The notes beneath the pieces are model-generated. The model ran no database searches and was not told the DNA's origin. It worked only from the letters and a program-made list of their open reading frames with translations. The position numbers and the translations under genes were made by a program. Below are positions 35,929 through 51,076 of a DNA stretch of 64,000 nt, piece after piece (positions within the stretch are counted from its first letter, which is position 1; every line of letters begins with the position of its first letter). The stretch is from Pseudomonas sp. MM223. GTDB taxonomy: Bacteria; Pseudomonadota; Gammaproteobacteria; Pseudomonadales; Pseudomonadaceae. The DNA is taken from NCBI GenBank assembly GCA_947090765.1, contig OX352322.1, positions 3,083,501-3,147,500 of the forward strand, given 5' to 3'.

Positions 35929-37179
35929 GTGTACGATTTCATCATTATTGGCGGTGGCATTGTGGGCATGTCCACGGCCATGCACCTGATCAAGGTGTAC
36001 CCGGACGCGAAGATTCTCTTGTTGGAGAAGGAGTCCGGCCCGGCCCGCCACCAGACCGGGCACAACAGTGGCGTGATCCACGCTGGCGTGTATTACACCC
36101 CCGGCAGCCTAAAGGCGCGCTTCTGCCTGGAAGGCAACAAGGCCACCAAGGCCTTCTGCACCCAGCATGGCATCCGCTTCGATGAGTGCGGCAAGCTGCT
36201 GGTAGCCACCAACGCGCTGGAAATGCAGCGCATGAAGGCGCTGTGGGAGCGTACCGCAGCCAACGGCCTGGAGCGCCACTGGCTGTCGGCAGACGAGTTG
36301 CGCGAGCGCGAGCCTAATATCGTGGGCATGGGGGGCATCTTCGTGCCGTCCAGTGGCATCGTCAATTACGCCGAAGTCACCGCTGCAATGGGCGCAGAGT
36401 TCCAGCGTGCCGGCGGCGAAATCCGTTATGGTGCAGAGGTGGTCGGCCTGCAGGAGCAAGCCAGCGAAGTGATCGTGCGCACTCAGCGCGACGAGTTCCG
36501 TAGCCGTTTCCTGGTGACCTGCTCGGGCCTGATGGCCGACCGCGTGGTGAGCATGCTGGGCCTGCGCACCGAATTTGTCATCTGCCCGTTCCGGGGCGAG
36601 TACTACTTGTTGCCCAAGCAGCACAACCAGATCGTCAACCACCTGATCTACCCGATTCCCGACCCGTCGATGCCGTTTTTGGGTGTGCACCTGACCCGCA
36701 TGATCGACGGCACCGTCACGGTTGGCCCTAACGCCGTACTGGCGATGAAGCGCGAGGGTTACCGCAAGACCGACGTCAGCCCCAGCGACTTGTTCCAGAC
36801 CCTGACCACCCCCGGCATTCTCAAGGTATTGGCGAAAAACTTCCGCCCGGGCCTGATCGAGATGAAAAACTCGCTGTTCAAGGGTGGCTATCTCAAGCAG
36901 GTGCAGAAGTACTGCCCGAGCATCACCAAGGCCGACCTCACACCTTACCCGGCCGGCGTGCGCGCCCAGGCGGTGTCGCGCGACGGCAAGCTGATCGACG
37001 ACTTCCTGTTCGTCAACACCGCGCGCAGCGTCAACGTGTGCAACGCACCGTCGCCAGCCGCCACCTCGGCCATCCCGATCGGCGCCTACATCGTCGAGAA
37101 GGTGTGTGAGCAGGTCACTCGTGCAGGTGGCAGTGTCCCCAAGGCGGACTTGGCGGCCAGCCAGCGGGCGGCCAGCTGA
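35929..37179 (+). CDS. lhgO: L-2-hydroxyglutarate oxidase/dehydrogenase LhgO
   Basis: 416 residues from GTG 35929. It has an N-terminal FAD-binding dinucleotide fold (YDFIIIGGGIVGMSTAMHL), the DAO-family GHNSGVIHAGVYY segment near residue 45, and the C-terminal FLFVNTARSVNVCNAPSPAATSA loop typical of LhgO. It oxidises L-2-hydroxyglutarate to 2-oxoglutarate with electrons passed to the respiratory quinone pool. It follows csiD by 114 bases on the same strand and is followed by gabP. Confidence 0.95.
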   Translation: MYDFIIIGGGIVGMSTAMHLIKVYPDAKILLLEKESGPARHQTGHNSGVIHAGVYYTPGSLKARFCLEGNKATKAFCTQHGIRFDECGKLLVATNALEMQRMKALWERTAANGLERHWLSADELREREPNIVGMGGIFVPSSGIVNYAEVTAAMGAEFQRAGGEIRYGAEVVGLQEQASEVIVRTQRDEFRSRFLVTCSGLMADRVVSMLGLRTEFVICPFRGEYYLLPKQHNQIVNHLIYPIPDPSMPFLGVHLTRMIDGTVTVGPNAVLAMKREGYRKTDVSPSDLFQTLTTPGILKVLAKNFRPGLIEMKNSLFKGGYLKQVQKYCPSITKADLTPYPAGVRAQAVSRDGKLIDDFLFVNTARSVNVCNAPSPAATSAIPIGAYIVEKVCEQVTRAGGSVPKADLAASQRAAS

Positions 37180-37223
37180 TACCGCCGTAATACCTTCTGC
37201 GGTTTCCTTTTACTCAACCCGAA

Positions 37224-37260
37224 CTGCCCTACTCACCATTTAGGGCAGGGCGGGCTTTTT
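37224..37260 (+). terminator. Possible intrinsic terminator after lhgO
   Basis: Eight-base arms CTGCCCTA (37224-37231) and TAGGGCAG (37241-37248) are followed by GGCGGGC and five T (37256-37260). It lies in the 152-base lhgO-gabP gap, so it could separate gabP from the csiD-lhgO transcript or only attenuate it. Confidence 0.4.
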
Positions 37261-37331
37261 CGCGCCTGCGTCGGTGATCGTGCTCGCCGACGGCCCCTTC
37301 GCGGGCATTACAAAAACAACAAGGTAGCGTC

Positions 37332-38723
37332 ATGCAAACCCACAAGAACAATTTGAGTCATGGATTGAAATCACGGCATGTCACCATGCTGTCCATTGCC
37401 GGCGTGATCGGTGCCGGGCTGTTCGTCGGCTCCGGCCGCGCCATCGCCGAAGCAGGGCCGGCCACCATCCTGGCCTATATCCTGGCCGGTGGCCTGGTGG
37501 TGCTGGTGATGCGCATGCTGGCCGAAATGGCCGTTGCCTCGCCGGATACCGGGTCGTTTTCCACCTATGCCGACCTCGCCATCGGCAAATGGGCCGGCTA
37601 TACCATCGGCTGGTTGTACTGGTGGTTCTGGGTGCTGATCATCCCGATCGAAGCCAACATCGCCGCTACCATCATCAATTCCTGGGTCCCGCAGCTGGAG
37701 ATCTGGGTTTTGTCGTTGGTGATCACCTTGCTGTTGACCGCCACCAACCTGTTCAGCGTGAAAAACTACGGCGAGTTCGAGTTCTGGTTGGCACTGGTGA
37801 AAGTGGTGGCTATCGTCAGTTTCATTGCACTGGGTGTTTGCGCAATTTTCGGCCTGCTGCCCGGCTCCGGGGTCAGCGGTGTTTCACGCCTTTGGGACAC
37901 TGGCGGCTTCATGCCCAATGGTTTCGGTGCGGTGCTGAGCGCCATGTTGATCACCATGTTCTCGTTCCTTGGGGCTGAGGTGGTGACCATCGCTGCCGCC
38001 GAGTCCGATGAGGCGGGCAAGCATATTTCCAAGGCCACCAATTCGGTGATCTGGCGGATCACCTTGTTTTATATCCTGTCGATCTTCATCGTCATCGCGC
38101 TGGTGCCGTGGACCGACCCGCGTCTGGCCGCCGAGGGTTCCTACTTCGCAGTGCTGGACACCCTCGGTGTGTCGAACGCCAAGGCCATCATCGATTTTGT
38201 AGTGTTGACATCGGTGACCAGTTGCCTCAATTCGTCGCTGTATACCGCTTCGCGCATGGTTTACTCGCTGAGCCGCCGCGGTGATGCACCGGCCTGCGCC
38301 CAGGTGACCAGCCGCAGTGGCACGCCCGTGGTGGCTGTACTGCTGTCTACCGGTGCAGCGTTTTTGGCAGTGATCGCCAATTACCTGGTGCCTGCCAAGG
38401 TGTTCGGCTTCCTGATGGCCAGTTCGGGCGCCATCGCGCTGCTGGTCTATCTGGTCATCGCCATTTCCCAGCTGCGCCTGCGCCAGCGCCTGACCGCACA
38501 GGGCAAGACCCTGGGTTACCGCATGTGGCTGTTCCCGTGGCTTACCTGGGGTGTGATCGTGTTCATCTGCAGCGTGCTGGTGGTGATGCTGTTCCGTCCA
38601 GACCACCGCGTGGAAGTGGTGTCGACCATGGTGCTGGCGGTGTTGGTGGTATGTTCCGGCTTGCTGGTCACGCGTCGACGGGCGCGCGCGGTGCCGGTTG
38701 GCGCCGTAGGGCAGGGCGTTTGA
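37332..38723 (+). CDS. gabP: Amino acid permease, GabP type (APC superfamily)
   Basis: 463 residues with twelve predicted helices. The N terminus carries the family motif GLKSRHVTMLSIAGVIGAGLFVGSG (helix 1), followed by AGPATILAYILAGGLVVLVMRMLAEMAV. This wording is typical of GABA permease GabP and related AAT permeases. ATG 37332 has AAGG seven bases upstream. Its place after csiD-lhgO suggests uptake of GABA or 5-aminovalerate, the C4/C5 omega-amino acids feeding this pathway; substrate is inferred from context. It is not preceded by other gab genes here. Confidence 0.85.
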   Translation: MQTHKNNLSHGLKSRHVTMLSIAGVIGAGLFVGSGRAIAEAGPATILAYILAGGLVVLVMRMLAEMAVASPDTGSFSTYADLAIGKWAGYTIGWLYWWFWVLIIPIEANIAATIINSWVPQLEIWVLSLVITLLLTATNLFSVKNYGEFEFWLALVKVVAIVSFIALGVCAIFGLLPGSGVSGVSRLWDTGGFMPNGFGAVLSAMLITMFSFLGAEVVTIAAAESDEAGKHISKATNSVIWRITLFYILSIFIVIALVPWTDPRLAAEGSYFAVLDTLGVSNAKAIIDFVVLTSVTSCLNSSLYTASRMVYSLSRRGDAPACAQVTSRSGTPVVAVLLSTGAAFLAVIANYLVPAKVFGFLMASSGAIALLVYLVIAISQLRLRQRLTAQGKTLGYRMWLFPWLTWGVIVFICSVLVVMLFRPDHRVEVVSTMVLAVLVVCSGLLVTRRRARAVPVGAVGQGV

Positions 38724-38810
38724 TCGGCCTGGGCTGAAGACAGACAAGCAAGTCGCTCCCGGCTGTGAGAGGATGTCCCCCATCACAGCCAGGACCCCGA
38801 ACACAGCCTG

Positions 38811-39704
38811 ATGAAGACACCCAAAAGAATCGAACCCCTGATCGAAGACGGCCTGGTCGACGAAGTACTGCGGCCGTTGATGAGTGGCAAGGAAGCCGCC
38901 GTGTACGTGGTGCGCTGCGGCAACCAGGTGCGCTGTGCCAAGGTCTATAAAGAAGCCAACAAGCGCAGCTTCCGCCAGGCCGCTGAGTACCAGGAAGGCC
39001 GCAAAGTGCGCAACAGCCGTCAGGCCCGGGCCATGGCCAAAGGCAGCAAGTTCGGCCGTAAAGAAGCCGAAGATGCCTGGCAGAACGCCGAAGTTGCGGC
39101 GTTGTTCCGCCTGGCCAGTGCGGGTGTGAGGGTACCCAAGCCCTACGACTTCCAGGACGGCGTGCTGTTGATGGAGCTGGTGACCGATGCCGATGGCGAC
39201 GCCGCACCACGCCTGAACGATGTGCACCTGGAAGCCGAGGATGCCCGCACCTTCCACGCCTTTGTCATTCGCCAGATCGTACTGATGCTATGTGCGGGGC
39301 TGGTGCATGGCGACCTGTCCGAATTCAACGTGCTGCTCGGCCCGGACGGGCCGGTGATCATCGACTTGCCGCAGGCTGTGGATGCAGCCGCCAACAACCA
39401 CGCTTTCAACATGTTGCAGCGCGATGTAGACAACATGGCGCATTACTTCGGGCGCTTTGCCCCAGAGCTGAAAAGCACTCGCTATGCGCAGGAGATGTGG
39501 GCGTTGTTCGAGGCCGGCGATTTGCTTCCCGACAGCCCGTTGACGGGGGTGTTCGCGGATGACGAACATGAAGCTGACGTGTCCGGGGTAATGCGCGAGA
39601 TCGATGCCGCCCGGCTGGATGACGCCCGCCGCCGTGCTGCACGCGCTGAGGCCGAGCATGGGCCGGCCAAGGCAGAAGAGCCCACGCCGCCCTGGTTGCA
39701 GTGA
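38811..39704 (+). CDS. RIO1-family serine protein kinase
   Basis: 297 residues. Kinase features in order: the nucleotide loop SGKEAAVYVVRCG (about 26-38), the Lys of CAKVYKEANK (about 45), the catalytic loop LVHGDLSEFNVLL (His-x-Asp-x5-Asn, about 163-175) and the metal-binding IIDLPQAV (about 182). The segment FRQAAEYQEGRKVRNSRQARAMAKGSKFGRKEAEDAW is the RIO flexible loop. RIO kinases act in ribosome maturation in archaea and eukaryotes; bacterial targets are poorly known. It stands alone; a REP pair follows its stop. Confidence 0.85.
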   Translation: MKTPKRIEPLIEDGLVDEVLRPLMSGKEAAVYVVRCGNQVRCAKVYKEANKRSFRQAAEYQEGRKVRNSRQARAMAKGSKFGRKEAEDAWQNAEVAALFRLASAGVRVPKPYDFQDGVLLMELVTDADGDAAPRLNDVHLEAEDARTFHAFVIRQIVLMLCAGLVHGDLSEFNVLLGPDGPVIIDLPQAVDAAANNHAFNMLQRDVDNMAHYFGRFAPELKSTRYAQEMWALFEAGDLLPDSPLTGVFADDEHEADVSGVMREIDAARLDDARRRAARAEAEHGPAKAEEPTPPWLQ

Positions 39705-39732
39705 GGGGACGGTTTCAGTCAGATCAGTAATT

Positions 39733-39850
39733 GGGGCCGCTTTGCGGCCCATCGCAGGCAAGCCAGCTCCCACAGGTACTGCGCAGTTCTTCAGCATTGC
39801 GCGATCCTTGTGGGGGCTGGCTTGCCTGCGATGGGCTGCAAAGCAGCCCT
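39733..39850. repeat. REP inverted pair after the RIO kinase
   Basis: Arms at 39733-39774 and 39809-39850 contain GGCCGCTTTGCGGCCCATCG and CAGGCAAGCCAGCTCCCACA in opposite orientation. Between convergent genes (RIO kinase and TetR regulator). Confidence 0.85.
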
Positions 39851-39877
39851 AAACTGGCATTAGGGGCTGAGGGCCGA

Positions 39878-40519
39878 TCAGCCCGCTGCAGGCACATAGC
39901 CGTTGCGCTGATAGAACCGTTCCAGCTCATGGGCTGCCGGCTCTTCCCCGGTGAAGATGCGCAGGTACTCGGGAATGAAGCGCATGCGGTATTCCAGCGG
40001 CTCTACAGTCTTCATGCTGATGTAGCCGATCTGCGCCAGGTAGATCGAGCGGGCACGTGTGGCGGCGGCATCTTCGCTGAAGCCGAAGCGGTCGAACATT
40101 TGCTTGAGGGCGTTCATGCGCACGCTGTCAGCCTGCTTGATCTCTTCGGCCACCTGCTCTGACTGCAGGGCCCAACTGCGCATGGCGAATTCGCACTGCG
40201 AGTCGAACAGCGCACTGTTCAGCCAGCAGTCGAAGACATTGAGGATTGCCTCGGTGATCGAGGCAGCATAGGCCTGCGTCTGGTTTACCAGGTTGTGGGT
40301 GTTCTTGTGCTTCCACTGCTCAATCAGCGCTGCCAGCAAGGCTTCGCGGTCTTCGAAGTACCAGTAAAAACTGGTACGGGCAAGGTTGAGCTTTTTCGCC
40401 AGTGGTAACACGCGCACCGCATCCACCCCCGATTCCTTGAGGGCTTCGAAGGCCGCATTCAGCCAGCTTTCGATCGAGCCGCGGGCGCTGCTTTCTGGTG
40501 GGTTCGTGGTCATGTTCAT
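39878..40519 (-). CDS. TetR-family transcriptional regulator of the adjacent catabolic cluster
   Basis: About 213 residues from ATG 40519; ATG 40513 is an alternative, and the open frame to 40570 would run into the operator region. The N-terminal helix-turn-helix is VRVLPLAKKLNLARTSFYWYFEDREALLAALI (about 35-66), the TetR signature. The rest is a helical ligand-binding domain. It is divergent from the flavoprotein gene, with a long imperfect palindrome between them that overlaps a strong -35 box, the usual arrangement for a local repressor. The effector is probably the compound degraded or imported by the cluster. Confidence 0.85.
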   Translation of the reverse strand: MNMTTNPPESSARGSIESWLNAAFEALKESGVDAVRVLPLAKKLNLARTSFYWYFEDREALLAALIEQWKHKNTHNLVNQTQAYAASITEAILNVFDCWLNSALFDSQCEFAMRSWALQSEQVAEEIKQADSVRMNALKQMFDRFGFSEDAAATRARSIYLAQIGYISMKTVEPLEYRMRFIPEYLRIFTGEEPAAHELERFYQRNGYVPAAG

Positions 40520-40560
40520 AGGCGCATTGTTCCGTATCCATGGGGGCCTGGCAAGCTCAA

Positions 40561-40610
40561 TGTACACCACTGTCTAATTTATTGACACCTGTGTACATGA
40601 TGGCTAATGT
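40561..40610 (+). promoter_or_regulatory. Promoter and operator of the demethylase/DddP-like cluster
   Basis: An imperfect dyad spans 40561-40597: TGTACAC at one end and GTGTACA at the other, with inner TGTC/GACA, centred on TAATTTATT. The consensus -35 TTGACA (40582-40587) lies in its right half. A 17-base spacer leads to a weaker -10 TAATGT (40605-40610), 36 bases before the flavoprotein ATG. Binding of the divergent TetR protein here would block the promoter. Confidence 0.55.
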
Positions 40611-40645
40611 CGATTTTGCCTGATGACCTGAATGCGAGAACGACC

Positions 40646-42682
40646 ATGTCCAATGATCCGTTGCTTCAGCCGTACCAACTCAAGCACCTCACCTTGCGTA
40701 ACCGCATCATTACCACCTCCCACGAACCGGCCTACCCGGAAGAGGGCATGCCCAAGCAGCTGTACCGCGCTTACCATGTGGAGCGGGCCAAGGCCGGCGT
40801 GGCCATGACCATGACGGCGGGTTCCGCCGCTATCTCCCGCGACAGCCCACCCGTGTTCAACAACGTACTGGCCTACAAGGATGAAGTGGTCGGCTGGATG
40901 AAAGACCTGACCGACGAATGCCACGAACATGGCGCGGCGGTGATGATCCAGCTCACCCACCTGGGCCGCCGTACGCGCTGGGACAAAGGGGACTGGCTGC
41001 CGGTGGTATCGCCGTCGCACAACCAGGAGCCTGCGCACCGGGCTTTCCCCAAACGCCTGGAAATCTGGGACATCGAGCGCATCGTCAAGGACTACGCCGA
41101 TGCCGCCGAGCGCATGCAAGCCGCCGGGCTGGATGGCATCGAGCTGCAGGCATACGGCCACCTGATGGACCAGTTCTGGTCGCCGCTGACCAACGAGTTG
41201 CAGAACGTTTACGGTGGCTCGCTGGAAAACCGCCTGCGCTTCACCTTTGAAGTGCTCACGGCCATTCGCCAGCGGGTGGGCAATGAATTCATCGTCGGTA
41301 TCCGCTACACCGGCGATGAAGTGCTGGCCGGTGGCCTGACCAAGGACGAAGGTTTGCAGGTTTCGCAGCTGTTGAAGAACAGCGGCATGATCGACTTCCT
41401 CAACGTGATCCGCGGCAACATCGCGACGGATGCCGGCCTGACCGACATCATCCCGATACAAGGCATGCGCAATGCGCCGCACCTGGACTTTGCCGGCGAA
41501 ATCCGCTCGTTGACCGGCTTCCCCACGTTCCATGCGGCAAAGATCCCGGATGTGGCCACCGCCCGGCATGCCATTGCCGCAGGCAAGGTGGACATGGTCG
41601 GCATGACCCGTGCGCACATGACCGACCCGCATATCGTGCGCAAGATCATCGAAGGCCGCGAAGATGATATCCGCCCCTGTGTCGGCGCCAACTACTGCCT
41701 GGACCGCATCTACCATGGCGGCGCTGCCTATTGCATCCACAATGCCGCCACCGGTCGCGAAACCACCATGCCGCACGAGATACCCAAGGCGGCGCATCGG
41801 CGCAAGGTGGTTATCGTCGGCGCCGGCCCGGCGGGCCTGGAGGCGGCGCGGGTGGCGGGCGAGCGTGGCCACGAGGTGGTGGTGTACGAGGTGGCTGACA
41901 AGGCCGGTGGGCAGGTTCGCCTGACCGCGCAATCGGAGCGGCGCAAGGAGATGATCAGCATCATCGACTGGCGCCTGGCCCAGTGTGAACGCCTGGGTGT
42001 GACGTTTCACTACAACGTCTGGGCTGACAGCCAGATCATCCTTGATGAAGCCCCGGATGTAGTCATCGTGGCCACGGGCGGCCTGCCGCACACCGAGGTG
42101 CTGGAGCAGGGCAACGAACTGGTGGTGTCGAGCTGGGACATCATCTCCGGCGACGTCAAGCCCGGGCGCAACGTGCTGGTGTACGACGATGCCGGCGACC
42201 ATGCCGCACTGCAAGCCGCAGAGTTCATTGCGCAGAGCGGCGCACGCACCGAGATCATGACCCCCGACCGCACTTTCTCGCCCGAAGTCATGGGCATGAA
42301 CCTGGTGCCCTACATGCGTGCCCTGCAGCAGCTCGATACCACCTTCACCGTGACCTGGCGGCTCAAAGCGGTGAGCAGGACCGAACAAGGCTTGCTGGCG
42401 ACCATCGGCACCGACTACAGCGAGCTGCGCCAGACACGCCTGGTCGACCAGGTGGTGGTCAACCACGGCACCCGGCCACTGGACGAGCTGTATTTCCAGC
42501 TGTGCCCGCTGTCGAGCAATGAAGGCGCGGTGCAGTACCTGGACTTGATCGCAGGCCGCCCGCAGGCCTTGGTACGCCGCGACGATGGCCGCTTCCAGCT
42601 GTTCCGCATCGGTGATGCGGTGGCCTCACGCAACACCCATGCGGCCATCTATGACGCCTTGCGGTTGGTCAAGGACCTGTGA
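40646..42682 (+). CDS. NADH:flavin oxidoreductase / N-methyl-amino-acid demethylase-like flavoprotein (DgcA/StcD/TMADH family)
   Basis: 678 residues. An N-terminal old-yellow-enzyme TIM barrel (1-370) has QLTHLGRRTRW, GIELQAYGHLMDQFWSP and NVYGGSLENRLRF. Then comes the iron-sulfur region CVGANYC...YCIHNAATGRE, and a C-terminal dinucleotide fold (VVIVGAGPAGLEAARVAGERGHEV, about 390-415) with a second nucleotide site. Trimethylamine dehydrogenase has four Cys in C-x2-C-x2-C-x11(12)-C; here the second position is Ala (CVGA), leaving three. I recall the same wording in dimethylglycine and N-methylproline demethylases. The likely reaction is oxidative N-demethylation. It is the first gene of a cluster with a DddP-like enzyme and an ABC importer. 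Confidence 0.8.
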   Translation: MSNDPLLQPYQLKHLTLRNRIITTSHEPAYPEEGMPKQLYRAYHVERAKAGVAMTMTAGSAAISRDSPPVFNNVLAYKDEVVGWMKDLTDECHEHGAAVMIQLTHLGRRTRWDKGDWLPVVSPSHNQEPAHRAFPKRLEIWDIERIVKDYADAAERMQAAGLDGIELQAYGHLMDQFWSPLTNELQNVYGGSLENRLRFTFEVLTAIRQRVGNEFIVGIRYTGDEVLAGGLTKDEGLQVSQLLKNSGMIDFLNVIRGNIATDAGLTDIIPIQGMRNAPHLDFAGEIRSLTGFPTFHAAKIPDVATARHAIAAGKVDMVGMTRAHMTDPHIVRKIIEGREDDIRPCVGANYCLDRIYHGGAAYCIHNAATGRETTMPHEIPKAAHRRKVVIVGAGPAGLEAARVAGERGHEVVVYEVADKAGGQVRLTAQSERRKEMISIIDWRLAQCERLGVTFHYNVWADSQIILDEAPDVVIVATGGLPHTEVLEQGNELVVSSWDIISGDVKPGRNVLVYDDAGDHAALQAAEFIAQSGARTEIMTPDRTFSPEVMGMNLVPYMRALQQLDTTFTVTWRLKAVSRTEQGLLATIGTDYSELRQTRLVDQVVVNHGTRPLDELYFQLCPLSSNEGAVQYLDLIAGRPQALVRRDDGRFQLFRIGDAVASRNTHAAIYDALRLVKDL

Positions 42683-42786
42683 CCCGCACGAAGTAAAACA
42701 ATAAAAAACAGCAACGCCTGATTTTCGCTTCCTTGTTACTGCCCTGGCTCCAACAACGACAACGATATCCAGTGGAGAGTGTAACC

Positions 42787-44079
42787 ATGCACATCGGTAC
42801 CCGACCGAGCCCTGCGCCGTCCTTGCAGTTTCGTGATGATTCCAGTGTAACCAGCCATGTTCTGGCCCCGGTGGACTGCGAGTTGCTTGCCGCCCAGGCC
42901 GCGATCGACCGTAAAGCCCTGCGCCGTTACCGCCTTGGCCGCATTCGCCAGCAGCTGCGTGCCCATGACTATGGCGGCATCCTGCTTGCCGACCCGATCA
43001 ACATCCGCTACGCCACCGACACCAACAATCTCGGCCTGTGGGTCATGCATTCGCCCAGCCGTTATGTGTTCGTCCCAACCGAGGGGCCGGTGGTGCTGTT
43101 CGAGTTCACCAGCAGCCGACACAACAGCGAGCATGTCGAAACCATTGACGAGATCCGCCCGGCGCTGCCCTGGCTGTACTTTCTTGCGGGCCCTCGGGTG
43201 GATGAAAAGGCCGCGTTGTGGGCGGCAGAAGTGGCCGAACTGATGGTCCGCCACAGCGGTGGCAATCGCCGTCTGGCCGTAGACCGTTGCGACCCTTGGG
43301 GCGCAGAAAAACTCAAGGCCAGGGGCATCGAACTGTTCGACGCACAACCCTTGATGGAGCAGGCCCGACTGATCAAGTCGGCCGAGGAAGTCACCAGCCA
43401 CCGGGTGTCGATGGCCGTCTGCGACCTGGCTATCGCTCGCATGCGTGCAAGCTTGCAGCCAGGCATCACCGAGAACCAGCTGTGGAGCATCCTGCACGGC
43501 ACCAACGTGGCCCAGGGTGGCGAGTGGGCCGAGAGCCGGCTGCTGAGCTCTGGCCAGCGCACCAACCCGTGGTTCCAGGATGCGACCGACAAGGTCATCG
43601 AAGCAGGTGAAATGGTGTGCTTTGACACCGACATGGTAGGCCCCGGAGGTTACCTGTCGGACATCTCGCGCAGTTTCGTCTGCCCCGGCAAGCCAGTGAC
43701 AGCGGCCCAGCGCGAGCTGCTCGACATCGCCAGCCGGCAAATAAGCCATAACGTCGAGCTGCTGCGCCCGGGGTTGTCGTTCCGCGAGTTTGCCGAGCGT
43801 TGCTGGCCGGTGCCGCAAAAGTACGAGCACAACCGCTACATGATGATGCTGCACGGCGTCGGCCTGGTCGATGAATACCCCAGCGTGGCCTATGCCGTGG
43901 ACTTTGCCGAATGGGGCTATGACGGCCTGTTCGAGGAAAACATGGTGGTATCAGTAGAAAGCTACATCGGCGAGCGCGGTGGGCGCGAAGGGGTGAAGCT
44001 GGAAGAGCAGGTGCTGATCACTGCCCAGGGCGCGGTCAAGCTGTCGAGCACACCCTTGGTCGATGACCAGCGGTCTTGA
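42787..44079 (+). CDS. M24-family metalloenzyme resembling DMSP lyase DddP
   Basis: 430 residues from ATG 42787 with GGAG upstream. The N-terminal creatinase-like domain includes DYGGILLADPINIRYATDTNN, and the C-terminal pita-bread fold has GGEWAESRLLSSGQRTNPWFQ. Metal ligands are complete: Asp-x-Asp in CFDTDMVG, Asp in LSDISRSF, His in LHGVGLVDE, Glu in VSVESYIG and Glu in VKLEEQVLIT. The Asp six residues after the His (HGVGLVD) matches the catalytic Asp I recall in DddP. P. putida creatinase lacks the metal ligands, and ectoine hydrolases differ in the His motif. It may cleave DMSP or a similar onium compound; an amidohydrolase or peptidase role cannot be excluded. It sits between the flavoprotein and the ABC transporter. 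Confidence 0.75.
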   Translation: MHIGTRPSPAPSLQFRDDSSVTSHVLAPVDCELLAAQAAIDRKALRRYRLGRIRQQLRAHDYGGILLADPINIRYATDTNNLGLWVMHSPSRYVFVPTEGPVVLFEFTSSRHNSEHVETIDEIRPALPWLYFLAGPRVDEKAALWAAEVAELMVRHSGGNRRLAVDRCDPWGAEKLKARGIELFDAQPLMEQARLIKSAEEVTSHRVSMAVCDLAIARMRASLQPGITENQLWSILHGTNVAQGGEWAESRLLSSGQRTNPWFQDATDKVIEAGEMVCFDTDMVGPGGYLSDISRSFVCPGKPVTAAQRELLDIASRQISHNVELLRPGLSFREFAERCWPVPQKYEHNRYMMMLHGVGLVDEYPSVAYAVDFAEWGYDGLFEENMVVSVESYIGERGGREGVKLEEQVLITAQGAVKLSSTPLVDDQRS

Positions 44080-44094
44080 GTGGAGGGCCTGCAC

Positions 44095-44895
44095 ATGAAA
44101 CCAATGAGTGTTCCCTTGCGCCAGGTGCCACCCATGCCTGCACCTGAACCCGCATTCCTGCGCCTGGAGTCGATCCACAAGCAGTTCGGCCCGTACGAGG
44201 TGTTGCACGACGTCAACTTTGAAATGAGCAAAGGAGAGGTGGTGGCCATTATCGGGCCCAGCGGCTCGGGCAAGAGCACCCTGTTGCGTTGCATCAACCA
44301 GCTGGAACCACCGACTCGCGGGCGTATCCGCCTGGACGAGCTGGACATCGACGCCGCCACTCCGTTGCTGCGCGCCGACCTGCTGAAGCTGCGCCGGCGC
44401 ATTGGCATGGTGTTCCAGTCGTTCAACCTCTTCCCTCATATGACCGTGCTGCGCAATGTCAGCCTGGCGCAAGTCCGTACGCTCGGGCGCAGCCAGCGTG
44501 AGGCCGATGCGCGCTCCATGCAGCTGCTGGAACGGGTGGGCCTGGCCGACAAGGCCGGGCATTACCCGGCACGTTGTTCGGGTGGCCAGCAGCAGCGAAT
44601 CGCCATTGCCCGCGCGCTGGCGCTGGAGCCCGAACTGATGTTGTTCGACGAACCCACTTCGGCGCTGGACCCGGAGTTGGGCCTGGAGGTGCTGGCGGTC
44701 ATGAAGGAGCTGGCTGCCGAGGGCATGTCGATGATCGTTGTCACCCATGAAATGCACTTTGCCGAGACGGTGTCTGACCGCGTGGTGGTGATGGCCGACG
44801 GGCGCATCCTCGAGCAGGGGCCAAGCGCACAGGTGATGCGACAGCCGCGTCACGAGCGGGTGGTGAAGTTTCTCCAGGCCGTGAGGGACCGCTGA
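44095..44895 (+). CDS. Amino-acid-type ABC transporter, ATP-binding protein
   Basis: 266 residues from ATG 44095 (GGAGG eight bases upstream; a GTG at 44080 is possible). Walker A GPSGSGKST, Q-loop MVFQSFNLFPHMTV, signature CSGGQQQR, Walker B LMLFDEPTSALDPE and the switch VVTHEMHF are all present. The signature has Cys in place of the usual Leu. The sequence belongs to the polar amino acid (GlnQ/HisP) class. Its TGA overlaps the ATG of the first permease (TGATG). Confidence 0.93.
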   Translation: MKPMSVPLRQVPPMPAPEPAFLRLESIHKQFGPYEVLHDVNFEMSKGEVVAIIGPSGSGKSTLLRCINQLEPPTRGRIRLDELDIDAATPLLRADLLKLRRRIGMVFQSFNLFPHMTVLRNVSLAQVRTLGRSQREADARSMQLLERVGLADKAGHYPARCSGGQQQRIAIARALALEPELMLFDEPTSALDPELGLEVLAVMKELAAEGMSMIVVTHEMHFAETVSDRVVVMADGRILEQGPSAQVMRQPRHERVVKFLQAVRDR

Positions 44896-45536
44896 TGAAC
44901 GACATACTGCTGATGTTGCTTGCCGGTGTGCCGTGGACGCTGGGGGTGACCGTGTGTGCTTTCGCGACCGGCGTGGTGCTGGGCTTTCCACTGTGTGCGC
45001 TGCGCATGGCCAAGGTGCGCGGGCTGGCGGCGCTGGGGGCTGCCATCGTGATGACCTTGCGCTCGATCCCGCCCATTGTCTGGCTGTTTTTCATCTTCTT
45101 CGGCATTGGTGGCGGCTATATCGCCCTGTCACCGTTCGTGGCGGCCACGGTGGGCCTGGGCCTGATCACGGCGGCACAGATGGCTGAAGTGTACCGCGGC
45201 GCTTTTGCGGCAATCCCCGATGGCCAGTACGAAGCCGCGCATGTACTCAACCTGTCACCGGCACAACGCTTTTTCGATGTGGTGCTGCCGCAACTGACGC
45301 GTATCTCCATCCCTACGGCAGCCACCTATGCCATCGGCCTGCTCAAGGACTCGGCGGTGGCATCGACACTGGGCGTGGCGGACATTAGCTTCCAGGCCTA
45401 CCAGGTCTCGCAGCAGACCTTCCAGGGGCTGGGTGTGTACAGCGCCGCAGCGCTGGTGTACCTGCTGCTGAGCGTGCCGGTGGCAATGGCTTCGCGCTGG
45501 TTGTCCGGCACCTTGCAACGGAGGATCAGCCTGTGA
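44895..45536 (+). CDS. Amino-acid-type ABC transporter, permease 1
   Basis: 213 residues with about five helices. The EAA loop is seen as AEVYRGAFAAIPDGQYEAAHVLNLSPAQRFFDVVLPQ. It overlaps the ATPase stop and the next permease start (GTGA), so the three genes are coupled. It belongs to the HisM/GlnP class, which forms heterodimers in the inner membrane. Confidence 0.92.
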   Translation: MNDILLMLLAGVPWTLGVTVCAFATGVVLGFPLCALRMAKVRGLAALGAAIVMTLRSIPPIVWLFFIFFGIGGGYIALSPFVAATVGLGLITAAQMAEVYRGAFAAIPDGQYEAAHVLNLSPAQRFFDVVLPQLTRISIPTAATYAIGLLKDSAVASTLGVADISFQAYQVSQQTFQGLGVYSAAALVYLLLSVPVAMASRWLSGTLQRRISL

Positions 45537-46201
45537 GCGAACTACTGAGCCTGTGGGCCGAATGGTTTCCGGAGTTGTGGAAGGGCTTTGTGCTGTCGTT
45601 GCAGGTAACCGCCATCAGCCTGGTACTCGGTATAGGGCTTGGCCTGCTGCTGGCCCTGGGCGTCAGCGCCAAGGGCAGGGCGCTGCGCTACCCGGCTCTG
45701 GTGATCGTCGAACTGGGGCGTGGTGCACCGGCCTTGATCCTGCTGCAGTACTTCTACTTCGGCTTGCCCTCGGCAAACCTGACGCTGAGCGCGTTCTGGG
45801 CCGCGGCACTGGCGTTGGCCTACTGCACCGCGGCGTACACCAGCGAAATCATTCGGGGCGGCCTGGAGGCGGTTGCCCGTGGCCAGCACGAAGCCGCCGA
45901 GGTGATTGGCCTGGACCGTATCGATGCACTGCGCTACGTGATCCTGCCCCAGGCCCTGCGGGTGGCACTGCCGTCGCTGCTGGGCTTTTCGATCATGATG
46001 TTCCAGGCCTCTTCTCTGTGTTTCACCATCGCCTTGCCCGAAATTGTCAGCCGCGCGTCGGCCATTGGCTCCTCGACCTTCCAGTACATGCCGGTACTGG
46101 TGTTGGCGGGGCTGATGTATGCGGCTGTCTGCGCACCGGCAAGCCTGGGGGTGGCCGCCCTGGAAAGAAGACTGGCACCCGGCCAGCACGCAAGCTCCTG
46201 A
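45533..46201 (+). CDS. Amino-acid-type ABC transporter, permease 2
   Basis: 222 residues from GTG 45533. About five membrane helices; EAA loop SEIIRGGLEAVARGQHEAAEVIGLDRIDALRYVILPQ. It pairs with permease 1. The substrate-binding protein gene follows after 36 bases. Confidence 0.92.
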   Translation: MSELLSLWAEWFPELWKGFVLSLQVTAISLVLGIGLGLLLALGVSAKGRALRYPALVIVELGRGAPALILLQYFYFGLPSANLTLSAFWAAALALAYCTAAYTSEIIRGGLEAVARGQHEAAEVIGLDRIDALRYVILPQALRVALPSLLGFSIMMFQASSLCFTIALPEIVSRASAIGSSTFQYMPVLVLAGLMYAAVCAPASLGVAALERRLAPGQHASS

Positions 46202-46237
46202 ACCCTGCCTGCCCTCAACATTGCATAGGTACCCGTG

Positions 46238-47068
46238 ATGAAACCATTCAAGCGTGTCACCCGTTGGTTGGCCCTCTGCGCCGCCGTTGCCGGCAGCGCC
46301 CAGGCCATGGCCGAGTGCAAGCCCAGCCACAGTTTCGAAACCCTTACGCCCGGTGTACTGACCGTGGCTGCGTGGGTGTTCCCGCCTTACTCCGTGCCTG
46401 GCCCGAATCAGGAGCTGGGCGGGGTGGACGGGGAGATCATCAAGCAGATTGCTGCCCGTGAGTGCCTGACCATCAAGGCCAGCGTGCTCGACCCGGCAGC
46501 GGCGATTCAGTCGGTGGTCACCCGCCGCGCCGACGTGGTCATCGGCGACTGGTACCGCACGGTGGAGCGCGGCAAGGTGCTGGGGCTGTCGGCGCCGCTG
46601 TACCTGGATGTGATGGGCATCATCTCCAAGCCGGGTTATGCCACGGTCGGTGAACTGGAGGGCAAAAGAGTGGGCACCGTGCAAGGCTACCTGTGGGTCA
46701 ACGACCTGAAGAAGGTGCTGGGCGACAACCTGGTGCTGTACCCCAACCCGGTGGCCATGGCCCAGGACCTGGCGTCCGGGCGCATCGAGGCCGGCATCGA
46801 CAGCCATGCAGTGGCGGTGGTGTCGCAGCAGAAGGGGGCCTACCAAGGGGCGAGTATCAAGGTGTCTGCGCCCGATGCGCGGGTGAAGGCTACCGAGCAG
46901 CCAGGGCAGACGGCGATTCCGTACATGCTGAGCAATGCCGATCTGGGCAAGGCACTGGATGGCAACATCCAGGCGTTGCATGACAGTGGCGAGATCGCGC
47001 GGATTCTCGAAGCCCACGGGCTGGACCGGCAGGCGGCCGAAGTGGGGGCGCCGCGGTTGGTAGAATGA
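46238..47068 (+). CDS. Amino-acid-type ABC transporter, periplasmic substrate-binding protein
   Basis: 276 residues from ATG 46238. A signal peptide ends near AQAMA (about 26). The mature protein is an SBP_bac_3 two-lobe binding protein (GVLTVAAWVFPPYS, DGEIIKQIAARECL, RADVVIGDWYRTVERGKVLGLS, GKRVGTVQGYLWVNDLKKVLG). The ligand Arg and Asp positions common in amino-acid binders are not clearly present: GDWYRT replaces the usual (M/I)xxTxER, although ERGKVL follows it. It may therefore bind an atypical zwitterion such as a betaine. It is last in the operon; a strong hairpin follows. Confidence 0.88.
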   Translation: MKPFKRVTRWLALCAAVAGSAQAMAECKPSHSFETLTPGVLTVAAWVFPPYSVPGPNQELGGVDGEIIKQIAARECLTIKASVLDPAAAIQSVVTRRADVVIGDWYRTVERGKVLGLSAPLYLDVMGIISKPGYATVGELEGKRVGTVQGYLWVNDLKKVLGDNLVLYPNPVAMAQDLASGRIEAGIDSHAVAVVSQQKGAYQGASIKVSAPDARVKATEQPGQTAIPYMLSNADLGKALDGNIQALHDSGEIARILEAHGLDRQAAEVGAPRLVE

Positions 47069-47074
47069 GGTTGA

Positions 47075-47122
47075 CCTGTGCCGGCCCCTTCGCGGGTTCG
47101 CCCGCGAAGGGGCCGGCACAGG
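47075..47122 (+). terminator. 22-bp perfect hairpin with TTCG loop after the ABC operon
   Basis: Arms 47075-47096 and 47101-47122 are perfect complements, with the tetraloop TTCG. The stem includes GGCCCCTTCGCGGG, a REP-type core. There is no T-run directly after it, so it may act as a REP hairpin or a processive-transcription and mRNA-decay barrier rather than a classical terminator. Confidence 0.6.
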
Positions 47123-47231
47123 CAAAACCCGGCCATTGCCATTGATGCAAGACACAATCTCGTCATTTAGCCTTTTCACTGGCGCGCGACAGGCATAAGG
47201 TATACGCCGTTCAAAATGCCCTGGAGCTGTC

Positions 47232-48206
47232 ATGTCCAACCAATTCCCGTCCGTTCGTCCACGCCGCCTGCGCCAGAACGAGTCCCTGCGCACGATCTTC
47301 CAGGAAACCGAATTCCGCCTGGAAGACCTGATCCTGCCGATCTTCGTCGAAGAGGGCATCGATGACTTCGTGCCGATCACCAGCATGCCTGGGGTCAACC
47401 GCATCCCTGAGAAACTGCTGGCCCAGGAAATCGAGCGTTATGCCCGTGCCGGTATCAAGTCGGTCATGACGTTTGGCGTTTCGCATAACCTGGACGCCAC
47501 TGGCAGCGATACCTGGAACGAAAACGGCCTGGTCGCGCGCATGTCGCGCATCTGCAAGGACACCGTGCCGGAAATGGTGGTGATGTCCGACACTTGCTTC
47601 TGCGAATACACCAGCCACGGCCACTGCGGCGTGTTGCATGACCATGGCGTGGACAACGATGCCACCTTGGCCAACCTGGGCAAGCAGGCGGTCATTGCCG
47701 CCGCTGCCGGTGCCGACTTCATCGCCCCGTCGGCGGCAATGGACGGCCAGGTACAGGCCATCCGTAGCGCGCTGGATGGTGCCGGTTTCCATGACACCGC
47801 GATCATGGCCTACTCCACCAAGTTCGCCTCGTCGCTGTATGGCCCGTTCCGTGAAGCCGGTGGTACCGCGCTGAAGGGCGACCGCAAGAGCTACCAGATG
47901 AACCCGATGAACCGCCGCGAAGCCGTGCGCGAGTCGCTGCTGGACGAGCAGGAGGGGGCTGATGTGTTGATGGTCAAGCCGGCCGGCGCCTACCTTGACG
48001 TGATTGCCGACATCCGCGCCGCTTCGCGCCTGCCGCTGGCGGCGTATCAGGTGAGTGGCGAGTACGCGATGATCAAGTTCGGCGGCCTGGCCGGCGCCAT
48101 CGATGAAGGCCGGGTGGTGCGTGAAAGCATCGGCGCGATCAAGCGTGCCGGTGCCGACCTGATCCTGACCTATTTCGCCATGGACCTGGCCCGCGAAGGT
48201 ATCTGA
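47232..48206 (+). CDS. hemB: Delta-aminolevulinic acid dehydratase (porphobilinogen synthase), zinc type
   Basis: 324 residues from ATG 47232 with GGAG five bases upstream. It condenses two 5-aminolevulinate molecules to porphobilinogen in haem synthesis. Active-site lysines lie in AYSTKFASS (about 196) and [10 protein letters not shown] (about 249). The catalytic metal site is the cysteine type, [15 protein letters not shown] (Cys-x-Cys-x7-Cys), as in E. coli. The P. aeruginosa enzyme, as I recall it, has Asp/Ala there and uses magnesium. It is a single gene bounded by hairpins on both sides. Confidence 0.95.
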
Positions 48207-48230
48207 TTGCAAAGCGCGCCGCGTTGCGGC

Positions 48231-48322
48231 GCATCGCCGGCAAGCCAGCTCCCACAGGTACTGAACAGCCTTCAACGCCAGCGCTGTGCTTGTGGGAGCT
48301 GGCTTGCCGGCGATAGGGCCGG
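48231..48322. repeat. REP inverted pair between hemB and the MFS gene
   Basis: Arms at 48231-48256 and 48291-48322 contain ATCGCCGGCAAGCCAGCTCC and its complement, the same family as 33830 and 54228. It lies between convergent genes. Confidence 0.85.
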
Positions 48323-48357
48323 AACAGGCTGAAGCAATGCCTGCTCCGGTTACGCCT

Positions 48358-49692
48358 TTACAAGGCTGCCGCTTCCTGCAGGCTCATCGATTTGGTCTCC
48401 GGTGCCAGTACCAACGACACCGCCAGCCCCATCATGGTGATAGCCGCGGCGGCGAACATCGTGTTGGCAATGCCATAGTGCTCCAGCGAAATCGGCACCA
48501 GCCAGGTGCCGATGGCCGGCTCGAACGCCGCCAGCGAGGCACCCATACCCACCGCGAAAGCGCGGATTTCGGTGGGGAACAGCTCGTTCGGGTAGACGAA
48601 CTCCAGCACCTGGGCACCGCCGATGAACAGCGCGTAGGCACCGAACAGCGACAGCACTACCCAGCCTTGTGCATCCGGGAACAGTCCCAACCCCAGCAGC
48701 GCCAGCCCCGACCACAGGAAACTGTGGAGGATGATGGTGCGCCGGCCCAGGTAGTTGATCAGCCAGGTGGCGATGATGCAGCCAAGCACCAGGATCAGGG
48801 TAATGCCCATCGAGCCTAAGGCCGCCAGGTTGCCGGTCAACTGCAGCGCCTGGAACAGCTTGGGCACGAAGGCATACACGGCAAACAGCGGGATGACCGC
48901 GCAGGCCCAGAACATCACCACGAACAGGATGCGCTTGCCGTAGCCGGCGCGCAGGGCGCCGATGAACGACATGGTTTGGCCCGAGGCGCTGTCATCGCTG
49001 ATGTTGCGCAGCGAGAAACCCTGGCCATACACCTTGCGGATCACCTGCTCGGCCTCTGTGCGTCGGCCTTTGCTCAGTAGCCAGCGCGGCGACTCGGGTG
49101 TGCCCAGGCGGACCAGCAACAGCAAGCCGGCAATGATGGCCGGGCTAGCCATGACTGTACGCCATTGCTCGGGGCCGGCGTCGGCCAGCATGAAGTTGCC
49201 GGCAATGTAGGCCAGCGCGGCACCGACGAACCACAACACCGTCAGCAGCGACAGCCGCGACCCCCGGGATTTCTGCGGAATGAACTCGGTCAGCAGCGAG
49301 CCGGCGGCGGTGTACTCGATGCCGACTGCAAGCCCGCACAGCAGGCGCAGTACCGATAAGGTCAGCGGATCCTGCACCCACAGCATGCCGACCGAGGCCA
49401 GCATGACAATAGCCGGGGCGACGAAAAACAGCTTCTGTCGGCCCACGCGGTCGGTTAGCCAACCGCCGAAGAAGCCCCCTGCGAATACGCCAAGCAGGGC
49501 CATGGCAGCGATCATGCCTTGCCAGAAGCCGCTCAGTTGCAGCGAAGCGGACATGGGGAGGGTGGCGACGCCGATGATGCTGAGGATGTAACCGACCATC
49601 ACCCAGCCCAGCCCGGTACGCAGGGTGAGCAGTTGATGGAAGCTGTTGATTTCAACGTCGTCGATCATGACGGGTTGGGCAGTGGAACGCAT
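48358..49692 (-). CDS. MFS transporter (sugar-porter-like)
   Basis: 444 residues from ATG 49692, preceded by AAGAG. Twelve predicted helices. The MFS motif GGWLTDRVGRQKLF lies between helices 2 and 3, GIEYTAAGSLLTEFIPQKSRGSRL in the helix 4-5 region, and TPESPRWLLSKGR before the central loop, which is the sugar-porter signature also seen in aromatic-acid and niacin porters. The substrate is unknown. It follows the FAD oxidase gene on the same strand after 64 bases, so uptake of the oxidase substrate is a reasonable guess. Confidence 0.85.
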   Translation of the reverse strand: MRSTAQPVMIDDVEINSFHQLLTLRTGLGWVMVGYILSIIGVATLPMSASLQLSGFWQGMIAAMALLGVFAGGFFGGWLTDRVGRQKLFFVAPAIVMLASVGMLWVQDPLTLSVLRLLCGLAVGIEYTAAGSLLTEFIPQKSRGSRLSLLTVLWFVGAALAYIAGNFMLADAGPEQWRTVMASPAIIAGLLLLVRLGTPESPRWLLSKGRRTEAEQVIRKVYGQGFSLRNISDDSASGQTMSFIGALRAGYGKRILFVVMFWACAVIPLFAVYAFVPKLFQALQLTGNLAALGSMGITLILVLGCIIATWLINYLGRRTIILHSFLWSGLALLGLGLFPDAQGWVVLSLFGAYALFIGGAQVLEFVYPNELFPTEIRAFAVGMGASLAAFEPAIGTWLVPISLEHYGIANTMFAAAAITMMGLAVSLVLAPETKSMSLQEAAAL

Positions 49693-49756
49693 GTTTTTCT
49701 CTTGATCTGTTAATAGTGCCACACAAGGCAGGTGGCGGGCCTGGCAGCCCGCGCGG

Positions 49757-51076
49757 TCAAACTTCGAGGCCGGCGCGGAACTGGCCCCACTTGAGCACCG
49801 AGTTCACGCCAATGGACAGAAACGGCTGCGGCGGGGTCTTGTTCGGGCCTGGCGACGACAGCAGGAAGTCGATGTGCTCGTTATGCTCGCCGGCCAGCCA
49901 GTCCGCCAGCAGCTTGCCGGTGGCAGTACCGCGGGTGATGCCCAGGCCGTTGCAGCACAGGGCGCCGTAAACGTTCGGGGCCAGTTGGCCGAAGAAGCCT
50001 TCGTGGTTTTCCGACAGGCAGATGGCGCCGCTCCAGGAATATTCGAACTCGACATTGCCGAGCATCGGGAAGCGCCGCTCGAATGACTTGCGGTGGGTGG
50101 GCAGGTGGCTTTGCAAGGCACTGCTGCGCGGGCGGCCGTCCGGGTAGAAGTTGAAGCTGTTGCGGATCAGGATGCGGTTGTCGGCGGTGCGGCGCACGGT
50201 GCTGCCGAACGGGTGCGCAGGGATTACCCCCCATACCGGCTGGCCACCCAGGCGGGCCTGTTCTTCGGCGGTAAGCTGACGGCTCAGGCTGGCGTACAGG
50301 AACGTCGGCAGCAGGCGGCCCTTGAGGAAGCCGAACGCCGAGGCAAAGCCATTGTTGGCGAGTATCAGCTTGTCGGTGACGATGGTGCCACGGTCATGCA
50401 CCAAGGTGATCTTGTCGCCCTGGTCGATCGAGGTGATCGGCGTGTGCTCGTACAGGGTGACGTTGGCCGGCAGGCTGTCGGCCAGGCCTTTTACCAGGGC
50501 CGATGGCTGTAGCAACAGGGTACCGGGGATGTGCAAGGCTTTCTTGTAGTACGAGGTGCCGATGTGCGCTGGCAGGTCTTGCTCGTCAATCAGGGTGGCG
50601 CTGCAGCCGATTTTCTCCAGGCCACTGCGGTAGGCCTCGAGGATGGCAATGCCCTTGGCGCCGACGGCGGCCTGGTACTTGCCAGAGGCGGACATCTGGC
50701 AGTCGATGCCGTTGCGCTCGACGATGTCGCGCAGGTAGTCCTGGCCGAGGGTGTTCAGGCGCAGAACCCTGGTTGCAGCGGTAACGTCGCCGATGTAGTC
50801 CTTGGCACCGATGTCGTGCGGCACGTCGATGGCGAAGCCGGCATTGCGGCCGGCGGAGCCAAAGCCGACTTCCTGGGCTTCGACCAGCACGATCTCTTCA
50901 TTGGGGAAGTTCAACGCCATCTGGCGCGCCGCAGCCAAACCGGTCAGGCCAGCGCCGATGATGGTCCAGCGCGCTTGCTTGCGACCCGAATGGCCTGGGC
51001 ACGGCTGACGCTTGGGGCTGGTGTGGTACCAGCCCGGACGGGCGTCATCGCCAGGCAACGAAGTGACTTTTTGCAT
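49757..51076 (-). CDS. FAD-dependent amine oxidoreductase, PuuB/DadA family
   Basis: 439 residues from ATG 51076 with GGAG seven bases upstream. It has the N-terminal DARPGWYHTS segment, the FAD fold RWTIIGAGLTGLAAARQMA (about 40-58), GSAGRNAGFA, the central substrate domain, and the C-terminal GLGITRGTATGKLLADWLAG typical of gamma-glutamylputrescine oxidase-like enzymes. Such flavoproteins oxidise primary or secondary amines or amino acids. No other putrescine genes are near, so the substrate is open. It is co-oriented with the MFS gene that follows, and its promoter region carries two ATTGTCTA repeats. Confidence 0.85.
   Translation of the reverse strand: MQKVTSLPGDDARPGWYHTSPKRQPCPGHSGRKQARWTIIGAGLTGLAAARQMALNFPNEEIVLVEAQEVGFGSAGRNAGFAIDVPHDIGAKDYIGDVTAATRVLRLNTLGQDYLRDIVERNGIDCQMSASGKYQAAVGAKGIAILEAYRSGLEKIGCSATLIDEQDLPAHIGTSYYKKALHIPGTLLLQPSALVKGLADSLPANVTLYEHTPITSIDQGDKITLVHDRGTIVTDKLILANNGFASAFGFLKGRLLPTFLYASLSRQLTAEEQARLGGQPVWGVIPAHPFGSTVRRTADNRILIRNSFNFYPDGRPRSSALQSHLPTHRKSFERRFPMLGNVEFEYSWSGAICLSENHEGFFGQLAPNVYGALCCNGLGITRGTATGKLLADWLAGEHNEHIDFLLSSPGPNKTPPQPFLSIGVNSVLKWGQFRAGLEV

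Follow-up and report, generated by a model that had tools for sequence, protein, structure and literature searches.

A candidate catabolic cassette for methylated amino acids, pairing a DddP-like M24 enzyme with a StcD-type flavoprotein, in Pseudomonas and Burkholderiaceae

We analysed 64,000 nucleotides of Pseudomonas sp. MM223 (assembly GCA_947090765.1, contig OX352322.1, positions 3,083,501-3,147,500 of the forward strand; "the window" hereafter means this whole stretch) and followed up seven genes at positions 39878-47068. They encode a TetR regulator, a flavoprotein, an M24 enzyme, an ATPase, two permeases and a binding protein. The cluster probably serves to degrade an amino acid or betaine that carries methyl groups, and not dimethylsulfoniopropionate (DMSP). 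Our preferred reading, to which we give a probability of roughly 55%, is a regulated cassette for the catabolism of an N-methylated amino acid or betaine, the likeliest substrates being cyclic ones of the proline or pipecolate type.

As we picture the pathway, the amino-acid-type ATP-binding cassette (ABC) importer would take up the N-methylated substrate, and the M24 protein, a predicted dinuclear-metal enzyme of the DddP superfamily, would hold the carboxylate on its metals and the methylated onium group in a cradle of Trp and Tyr. Asp361 would remove the alpha proton, and the most likely outcome would be elimination, as in DMSP lyase. The StcD-type flavoprotein would then oxidise an N-methyl group with release of formaldehyde, and the TetR protein may sense the substrate or an intermediate, a role suggested by its co-inheritance with the flavoprotein. 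For the M24 step itself, elimination is our first choice, hydrolysis our second and epimerisation our third.

The original prediction for these genes had described a divergent TetR gene, overlapping ATPase and permease junctions, an amino-acid-type importer and no recognisable acrylate gene, and all of this was borne out. Pfam and NCBIfam concur on the families of all seven genes, which lie in a genome of 6.73 Mb whose nearest named relatives are Pseudomonas. The features are as follows.

39878-40570, minus strand: TetR regulator; PF00440 (TetR_N) 36.3 bits; probable start near 40519; transcribed away from the flavoprotein gene
40571-40606, no strand: intergenic region between the divergent TetR and flavoprotein genes; length 87 bp with the TetR start at 40519
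40607-42682, plus strand: StcD-type FMN/FAD (flavin mono- and adenine dinucleotide) flavoprotein, putative N-methyl amino acid demethylase; PF00724 (Oxidored_FMN) 177 bits, with PF07992 (Pyr_redox_2)
42733-44079, plus strand: DddP-like M24 enzyme; reading frame from TTG 42733, preferred start ATG 42787; Peptidase_M24 and Creatinase_N domains
43039-43041, plus strand: M24 Trp codon, proposed onium-binding; aligned with residue 95 of 4RZY
43624-43662, plus strand: M24 codons of three metal-ligand Asp (RdDddP D295, D297, D307); kept in 30 of 30 rows of the window clade
43837-43872, plus strand: M24 codons of Tyr (Y366), metal-ligand His (H371) and the proposed base Asp (D377); each in 30 of 30 rows
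43957-44004, plus strand: M24 codons of two metal-ligand Glu (E406, E421); each in 30 of 30 rows
44080-44895, plus strand: ABC ATPase of polar amino acid type; ABC_tran; GlnQ model 306 bits (cut-off 379), EhuA 292 (345)
44895-45536, plus strand: ABC permease 1; BPD_transp_1; TIGR01726 68.7 bits (cut-off 42.2); best full model EhuC 128 (197)
45533-46201, plus strand: ABC permease 2; BPD_transp_1; TIGR01726 87 bits (cut-off 42.2); best full model EhuD 131 (205)
46235-47068, plus strand: family 3 periplasmic binding protein; PF00497 (SBP_bac_3) 53 bits; solved relatives distant, the best at 54 bits

The ATPase and permease 1 genes share one base, and the two permease genes overlap by four. Both marks of the polar amino acid (HAAT) importers are present, namely the permease signature TIGR01726 above its cut-off and a family 3 binding-protein domain; we assign the importer to this type, with a methylated amino acid or betaine as its presumed ligand.

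Family and active site of the M24 enzyme

As the original prediction had proposed, the M24 protein is kin to DddP, the marine lyase that yields dimethyl sulfide and acrylate from DMSP; DddP ranks first in both sequence and structure neighbour comparisons; peptidases are not its nearest neighbours. All six metal ligands, the Asp of HGVGLVD, and the Tyr, Trp and Phe of DddP are kept in 30 of 30 rows of the window clade. We number these residues after RdDddP, as D295, D297, D307, Y366, H371, D377, E406 and E421 in the available text of PMC4108388; the window protein shares the metal ligands, Asp377 and Tyr366 with RdDddP (4B28) and RlDddP (4RZY). Window Asp361 corresponds to D377, and Tyr350 is a second candidate base. 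At residue 95, counted from the alignment with 4RZY, a Trp stands in 30 of 30 window-clade rows and in 17 of 17 DddP rows above the model cut-off; a Trp and a Tyr bind the sulfonium in DddP, according to the accessible part of PMC5395565, which states no residue number for them. Judged by these residues, the M24 protein is expected to function in the manner of DddP-type enzymes.

It is not to be filed as DddP, however, because it falls short in curated score and in tree placement. Against the curated NCBIfam DddP model it reaches 352.8 bits, under the cut-off of 600. In a quick tree of 70 rows, with 17 names on the drop list as near copies or repeats, 16 of 16 over-cut-off DddP rows fall in a 19-row branch (SH-aLRT support 100), 15 of them in a branch of their own, and this 19-row branch also holds L049, L050 and L083, which were not grouped as over the cut-off. 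The window protein sits outside it, in a separate branch of 22 rows (SH-aLRT 100); outgroup branches about 9 long make the rooting uninformative. Moreover, the window clade differs from DddP at positions 82, 286, 289 and 299 (Q to G, Y to G, C to L and G to P), with residues absent from the other clades aligned, and positions 286, 289 and 299 lie near the metal loop.

Further DddP-like sequences came to light. This genome carries a frameshift-split gene nearer to authentic DddP (L054, 12298-13601; G000:C1:2790297-2791600; 405.8 + 191.3 bits), with an OprD-like porin gene not far off by eye; its tree neighbours are L049 and L050, and both of those stretches hold ProU and Rieske genes. In a DddP-like sister clade (L051-L053, L163-L166, L168, L170-L172, L178 and L179), Gly replaces the catalytic Asp in 13 of 13 rows and Tyr or Phe replaces the Trp in 13 of 13; 10 of these 13 loci match a PhyH-like gene of another locus. 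This clade would carry out a different, possibly undescribed, chemistry.

The flavoprotein, its regulator and the spread of the cluster

The flavoprotein appears to be kin to the N-demethylases, as had been claimed for it, judged by the names that several close relatives bear. Its 678-residue relatives at 88-95% identity are called N-methylproline demethylase by their sources, as are several of the best 120 listed relatives (P0134, P0161, P0163, P0192 and P0222 among them); many others of these 120 are called NADH:flavin oxidoreductase, and the names are probably automatic. The window protein, a member of the old-yellow-enzyme superfamily, has the FMN-binding TIM barrel and FAD/NAD domain of StcD (PF00724, PF07992). 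StcD of Sinorhizobium is described in the available text of PMC12239276 as the N-methylproline demethylase of stachydrine catabolism, and the likeness to StcD of Sinorhizobium meliloti was drawn through the named relatives. We assign the flavoprotein to the StcD-type family, in which demethylation would be its reaction.

An unusual loss of an iron-sulfur ligand in this flavoprotein was considered and rejected as a family trait: among 89 other aligned rows, several of them repeat fetches, the motif reads CVGA-x-x-C in 85 and CVGV-x-x-C in one, and the Cys is present in three distant rows. The protein of this genome that resembles the dimethylglycine demethylase DgcA (L106, 7974-10034; its neighbours suggested the name by eye) has the same CVGANYC motif, in which Ala occupies one ligand position; the window flavoprotein is only 42% identical to it. 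Given the shared Ala, the iron-sulfur cluster of StcD- and DgcA-like flavoproteins may be altered or missing. The active-site loop of the window protein reads QAYGHL, which we set against what we take to be the His/Asn pair of the old yellow enzyme ene-reductases.

The TetR gene (44-100% identical) is transcribed away from the flavoprotein gene, at a distance of less than 900 bases, in 48 of the 61 loci where the two occur, a count with some repeat fetches; L146 and L148 have it next to the flavoprotein gene in convergent orientation. Away from this M24, flavoproteins 75-80% identical lie near Rieske oxygenase and electron-transfer flavoprotein genes (L145, L146), near ProX-like genes (L147, L148) or near ProC- and ProU-like genes (L161, L162), with formaldehyde genes also in the L162 stretch. 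Because TetR and flavoprotein are linked beyond this M24, they look like an older module, which the M24 and importer genes joined later. For a TetR operator, a palindrome scan of the window's TetR/flavoprotein intergenic region came back empty, and some relatives have partial palindromes there; for RNA elements, the window gave no Rfam match at gathering score.

A search of named-genome contigs, queried with the M24 protein alone, returned 30 loci. In 27 of them (17 Pseudomonas and 10 Burkholderiaceae) the genes for the flavoprotein, M24, importer ATPase, two permeases and binding protein follow in order; the remaining three (L042, L044 and L045) lack the cluster. Since M24 alone was the query, an arrangement kept in 27 of 30 loci is not chance. 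The TetR gene accompanies 26 of these 27 clusters, the exception (L034) being a contig that ends inside the flavoprotein gene. A RIO-type kinase gene and hemB flank the cluster in L016, L017 and L020, and hemB alone in L018; neither flank was found at >45% identity in the other fetched stretches. As the flanks are kept only in the closest relatives, the cluster behaves as a cassette, and it looks like a transferable one rather than freshly arrived DNA of odd composition. A foreign island marked by base composition was rejected, as the guanine-plus-cytosine fraction is 0.597-0.645 over positions 36000-51000. Downstream of hemB, at window positions 48358-51058, are transporter and FAD oxidoreductase genes that look, by eye, like genes of the L046, L167 and L169 stretches; at >45% identity, L016 and L017 alone have this pair near the cluster.

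In a sample of 198 genomes of the family, 12 match the M24 protein at E 1e-60 and five, this genome counted, at an identity of at least 80%; all five also hold the flavoprotein at 84% or more. The flavoprotein is found in 11 of the 198 at E 1e-200, six of which lack this M24. Across 398 genomes, a DddP-like M24 occurs in 41 and a StcD-like flavoprotein in 39 (those with at least 51% identity, out of 64 matching genomes), with 27 shared (Fisher p 1.5e-22, uncorrected for kinship); at genus level the counts are 29 and 26 of 212, with 18 holding both (p 6e-13, likewise uncorrected). These counts include this genome and the carriers of authentic DddP. Literature searches returned no account of this gene combination in titles or abstracts among the matches listed.

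Gene neighbourhoods and the candidate substrate

We compared the surroundings of other DddP-like M24 genes, counting as demethylase-type the Rieske oxygenases, MttB, GcvT-type dehydrogenases, StcD and NtaA/DmoA monooxygenases, with self-hits excluded. The loci were hand-picked: 10 stretches from 14 places (8 distant M24 genes, the split gene and one further cluster), then 17 of 56 and 10 of 19 listed places, with 18 flavoprotein stretches besides. Twenty control stretches were taken at arbitrary coordinates in genomes already used, and two of them, L193 and L202, hold betaine-type genes. The fragment L045 stayed outside all counts and L034 outside this one, the Asp in L223-L232 was confirmed only after counting, and gene names are by eye except in loci scanned with family models. 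The categories were set after many loci had been read, with the NtaA/DmoA and second GcvT queries added last, and the p values are descriptive.

Twelve of the 23 other Asp-keeping M24 loci have a demethylase-type enzyme in the fetched stretch, compared with one of 14 Gly-for-Asp loci and one of 20 controls (Fisher p 0.0009 for 12/23 against 1/20, a flattering value, as the categories were chosen post hoc and L046-L048 are one cluster counted thrice). Quaternary-amine transporters accompany 10 of the 23, compared with two of the 20 controls. All 26 complete window-type clusters have StcD, but they were chosen that way.

The partner varies among unrelated enzyme families. Rieske genes lie near M24 in L046-L050 and L167, MttB and GcvT-type genes in L173, L224 and L232, and NtaA/DmoA monooxygenase genes in L044 and L223. 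Some are tightly spaced: MttB ends about 20 bp before M24 in L224, a GcvT-type gene about 10 bp before it in L173, and a Rieske reductase gene about 45 bp before it in L167, whose stretch also holds ProU and a 4-hydroxyproline epimerase (569 bits, cut-off 376). In L225, TetR, ProC, ProU and StcD occur together, and M24 follows StcD at a distance of about 760 bp. With M24 constant and the methyl-removing partner changing, the simplest account is that M24 acts on the carbon skeleton of a methylated onium carboxylate, through the abstraction of the alpha proton put forward for DddP, while the partner demethylates the nitrogen. Since the partner in the window is a StcD-type flavoprotein, the compound or its product would be an N-methyl amine that StcD accepts. 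The original prediction of onium degradation thus holds at the level of the class, for about half of these other loci; its N-methyl branch is favoured and its sulfonium branch is weak. In L175, the one authentic DddP locus whose surroundings we inspected, there is a BCCT match. In L223 (9190-14477), an alphaproteobacterial M24 gene (64% identical) stands by caprolactamase-like subunit genes (297 + 539 bits, cut-off 1000), and the NtaA/DmoA-family monooxygenase there scores 513 bits (cut-off 280).

The cluster had also been called self-contained, a description that does not hold for the Burkholderiaceae: eight of their nine complete clusters, all but L040, add an imine-reductase-like gene of the ornithine cyclodeaminase (OCD) family, followed in L032 and L039 by a MarR-like gene (by eye). 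The best model for the L032 gene is a Pyr2C/Pip2C reductase (256 bits, cut-off 322), and ProC-like genes beside StcD reach 170 and 167 bits (cut-off 197). The OCD-family gene is consistent with a cyclic imine intermediate; together with ProC and the hydroxyproline epimerase it hints at proline- or pipecolate-type compounds. Formaldehyde genes appear as well: L040 has frmA/fghA-like genes (formaldehyde dehydrogenase and S-formylglutathione hydrolase) and a GlxA-type regulator between flavoprotein and M24, and an FdhA-like gene lies next to M24 in L169 and about 4 kb away in L049 (all by eye). A candidate only is beta-alanine betaine (the homocholine route), the nitrogen analogue of DMSP, which would fit the choline-dehydrogenase-like, betaine-aldehyde-dehydrogenase-like and ProU-type genes by M24 in L044, all under cut-offs; judged by listings, our literature search found no fitting work on the genes of this route.

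Several observations weigh against a cassette for N-methylated amino acids or betaines. Eleven of the 23 Asp-keeping loci have no demethylase-type match, nine (L042, L174, L176 and L226-L231) have neither that nor a quaternary-amine transporter, and the p value of the comparison is generous, as noted. In L042, M24 adjoins a Dpp-type ATPase gene, as might be expected for a peptide substrate. Neither the imine-reductase nor the ProC matches reach their cut-offs; L040 and the Pseudomonas versions lack the imine-reductase-like gene, and the MM223 genome holds no close copy elsewhere (best 31% over part). The window cluster is without an enzyme known to take the first methyl off a quaternary nitrogen, HAAT importers are not the usual betaine carriers, and we know of no substrate or activity for this M24 clade.

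Alternative reactions and biological meaning

A wider and decidedly tentative proposal is that the Asp-keeping DddP-like M24 proteins make up a wide superfamily of lyases or epimerases for betaines and N-methyl amino acids, joined to unrelated demethylase modules (Rieske, flavin, corrinoid, folate-type and FMN monooxygenase), with DddP as one sulfonium-specialised branch. The window would then encode an undescribed pathway in which a DddP-type step comes before flavin N-demethylation; such a step might be the formation of a cyclic imine by beta-elimination from an N-methylproline substituted at position 3.

Among the alternatives, the one that survives best, though we consider it unlikely, is that M24 is a creatinase- or ectoine-hydrolase-like amidase or amidinase that frees an N-methyl amino acid from an imported conjugate, which the flavoprotein then demethylates. 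Two M24 enzymes, creatinase and DoeA, hydrolyse small nitrogen compounds, and the creatinase route (creatine to sarcosine to glycine) likewise runs from an M24 enzyme to N-demethylation. The importer resembles Ehu by its model scores, and the Burkholderiaceae OCD-family gene recalls EutC (90 bits, cut-off 472), so that this cluster has in common with the EhuABCD/EutC/EutD-DoeA ectoine cluster a HAAT importer and an M24 enzyme, to which most Burkholderiaceae versions add an OCD-family gene. However, the window M24 protein scores 22.5 bits with the DoeA model (cut-off 575), which places it outside the creatinase/DoeA group; creatinase is a distant relative, a single profile giving 360 bits for DddP and 23-33 bits for creatinase chains, and the two substrate-binding His of M24 peptidases are Asp and Phe here, as they are in DddP in the available text of PMC5395565. 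A creatinase-like M24 gene does occur elsewhere in this genome (L102, by eye).

Less probable again is a 2-epimerase for betaines or N-methyl amino acids, in which the alpha proton is returned on the other face of a substrate without a beta leaving group. Its first step would be that proposed for DMSP lyase, Asp361 and Tyr350 offer two candidate bases, and the M24 gene of L167 lies near the 4-hydroxyproline epimerase, Rieske and ProU genes. Racemase activity on proline betaine and 2-epimerase activity on hydroxyproline betaine are mentioned for another superfamily in the part of PMC5144071 available. On the other side, we know of no M24 epimerase, nor is the need for one obvious, since StcD should accept the L form found in nature.

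A simple lyase cassette for DMSP or another sulfonium in a soil bacterium is improbable. The DddP metal ligands and catalytic residues are kept, and NtaA/DmoA-family genes lie near M24 in L044 and L223, DmoA being an enzyme that acts on dimethyl sulfide. Yet the M24 protein scores 353 of 600 bits outside the authentic DddP branch, carries the residues at 82, 286, 289 and 299 not seen in other aligned clades, and has a partner of N-demethylase type and no recognised acrylate gene. Least likely is a peptidase of minor role in a coincidental neighbourhood: some relatives are named Xaa-Pro aminopeptidase by their sources, but the arrangement is kept in 27 of 30 loci, the peptidase His pair is replaced by Asp and Phe in 30 of 30 window-clade rows, this genome's six other M24 places barely match the window protein (two at about 15 bits, four with no match), and RlDddP had no measurable Val-Pro activity in the available text of PMC5395565. 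With DddP first in all comparisons, we rejected the Xaa-Pro peptidase assignment, the outcome that would have overturned the original prediction.

We return to a cassette for a methylated amino acid or betaine as our preferred reading. In a survey of marine bacteria, dddP was the most widely distributed DMSP lyase gene, and its product has a Km for DMSP of 14-17 mM (both from the accessible text of PMC5395565). A sister clade that keeps the catalytic residues of DddP and is tied to an enzyme of N-demethylase type suggests an ancestral job on methylated nitrogen compounds. If this is true, Pseudomonas and Burkholderiaceae would gain an added pathway for betaines or N-methyl amino acids, and DddP calls made by similarity in soil genomes may be wrong.

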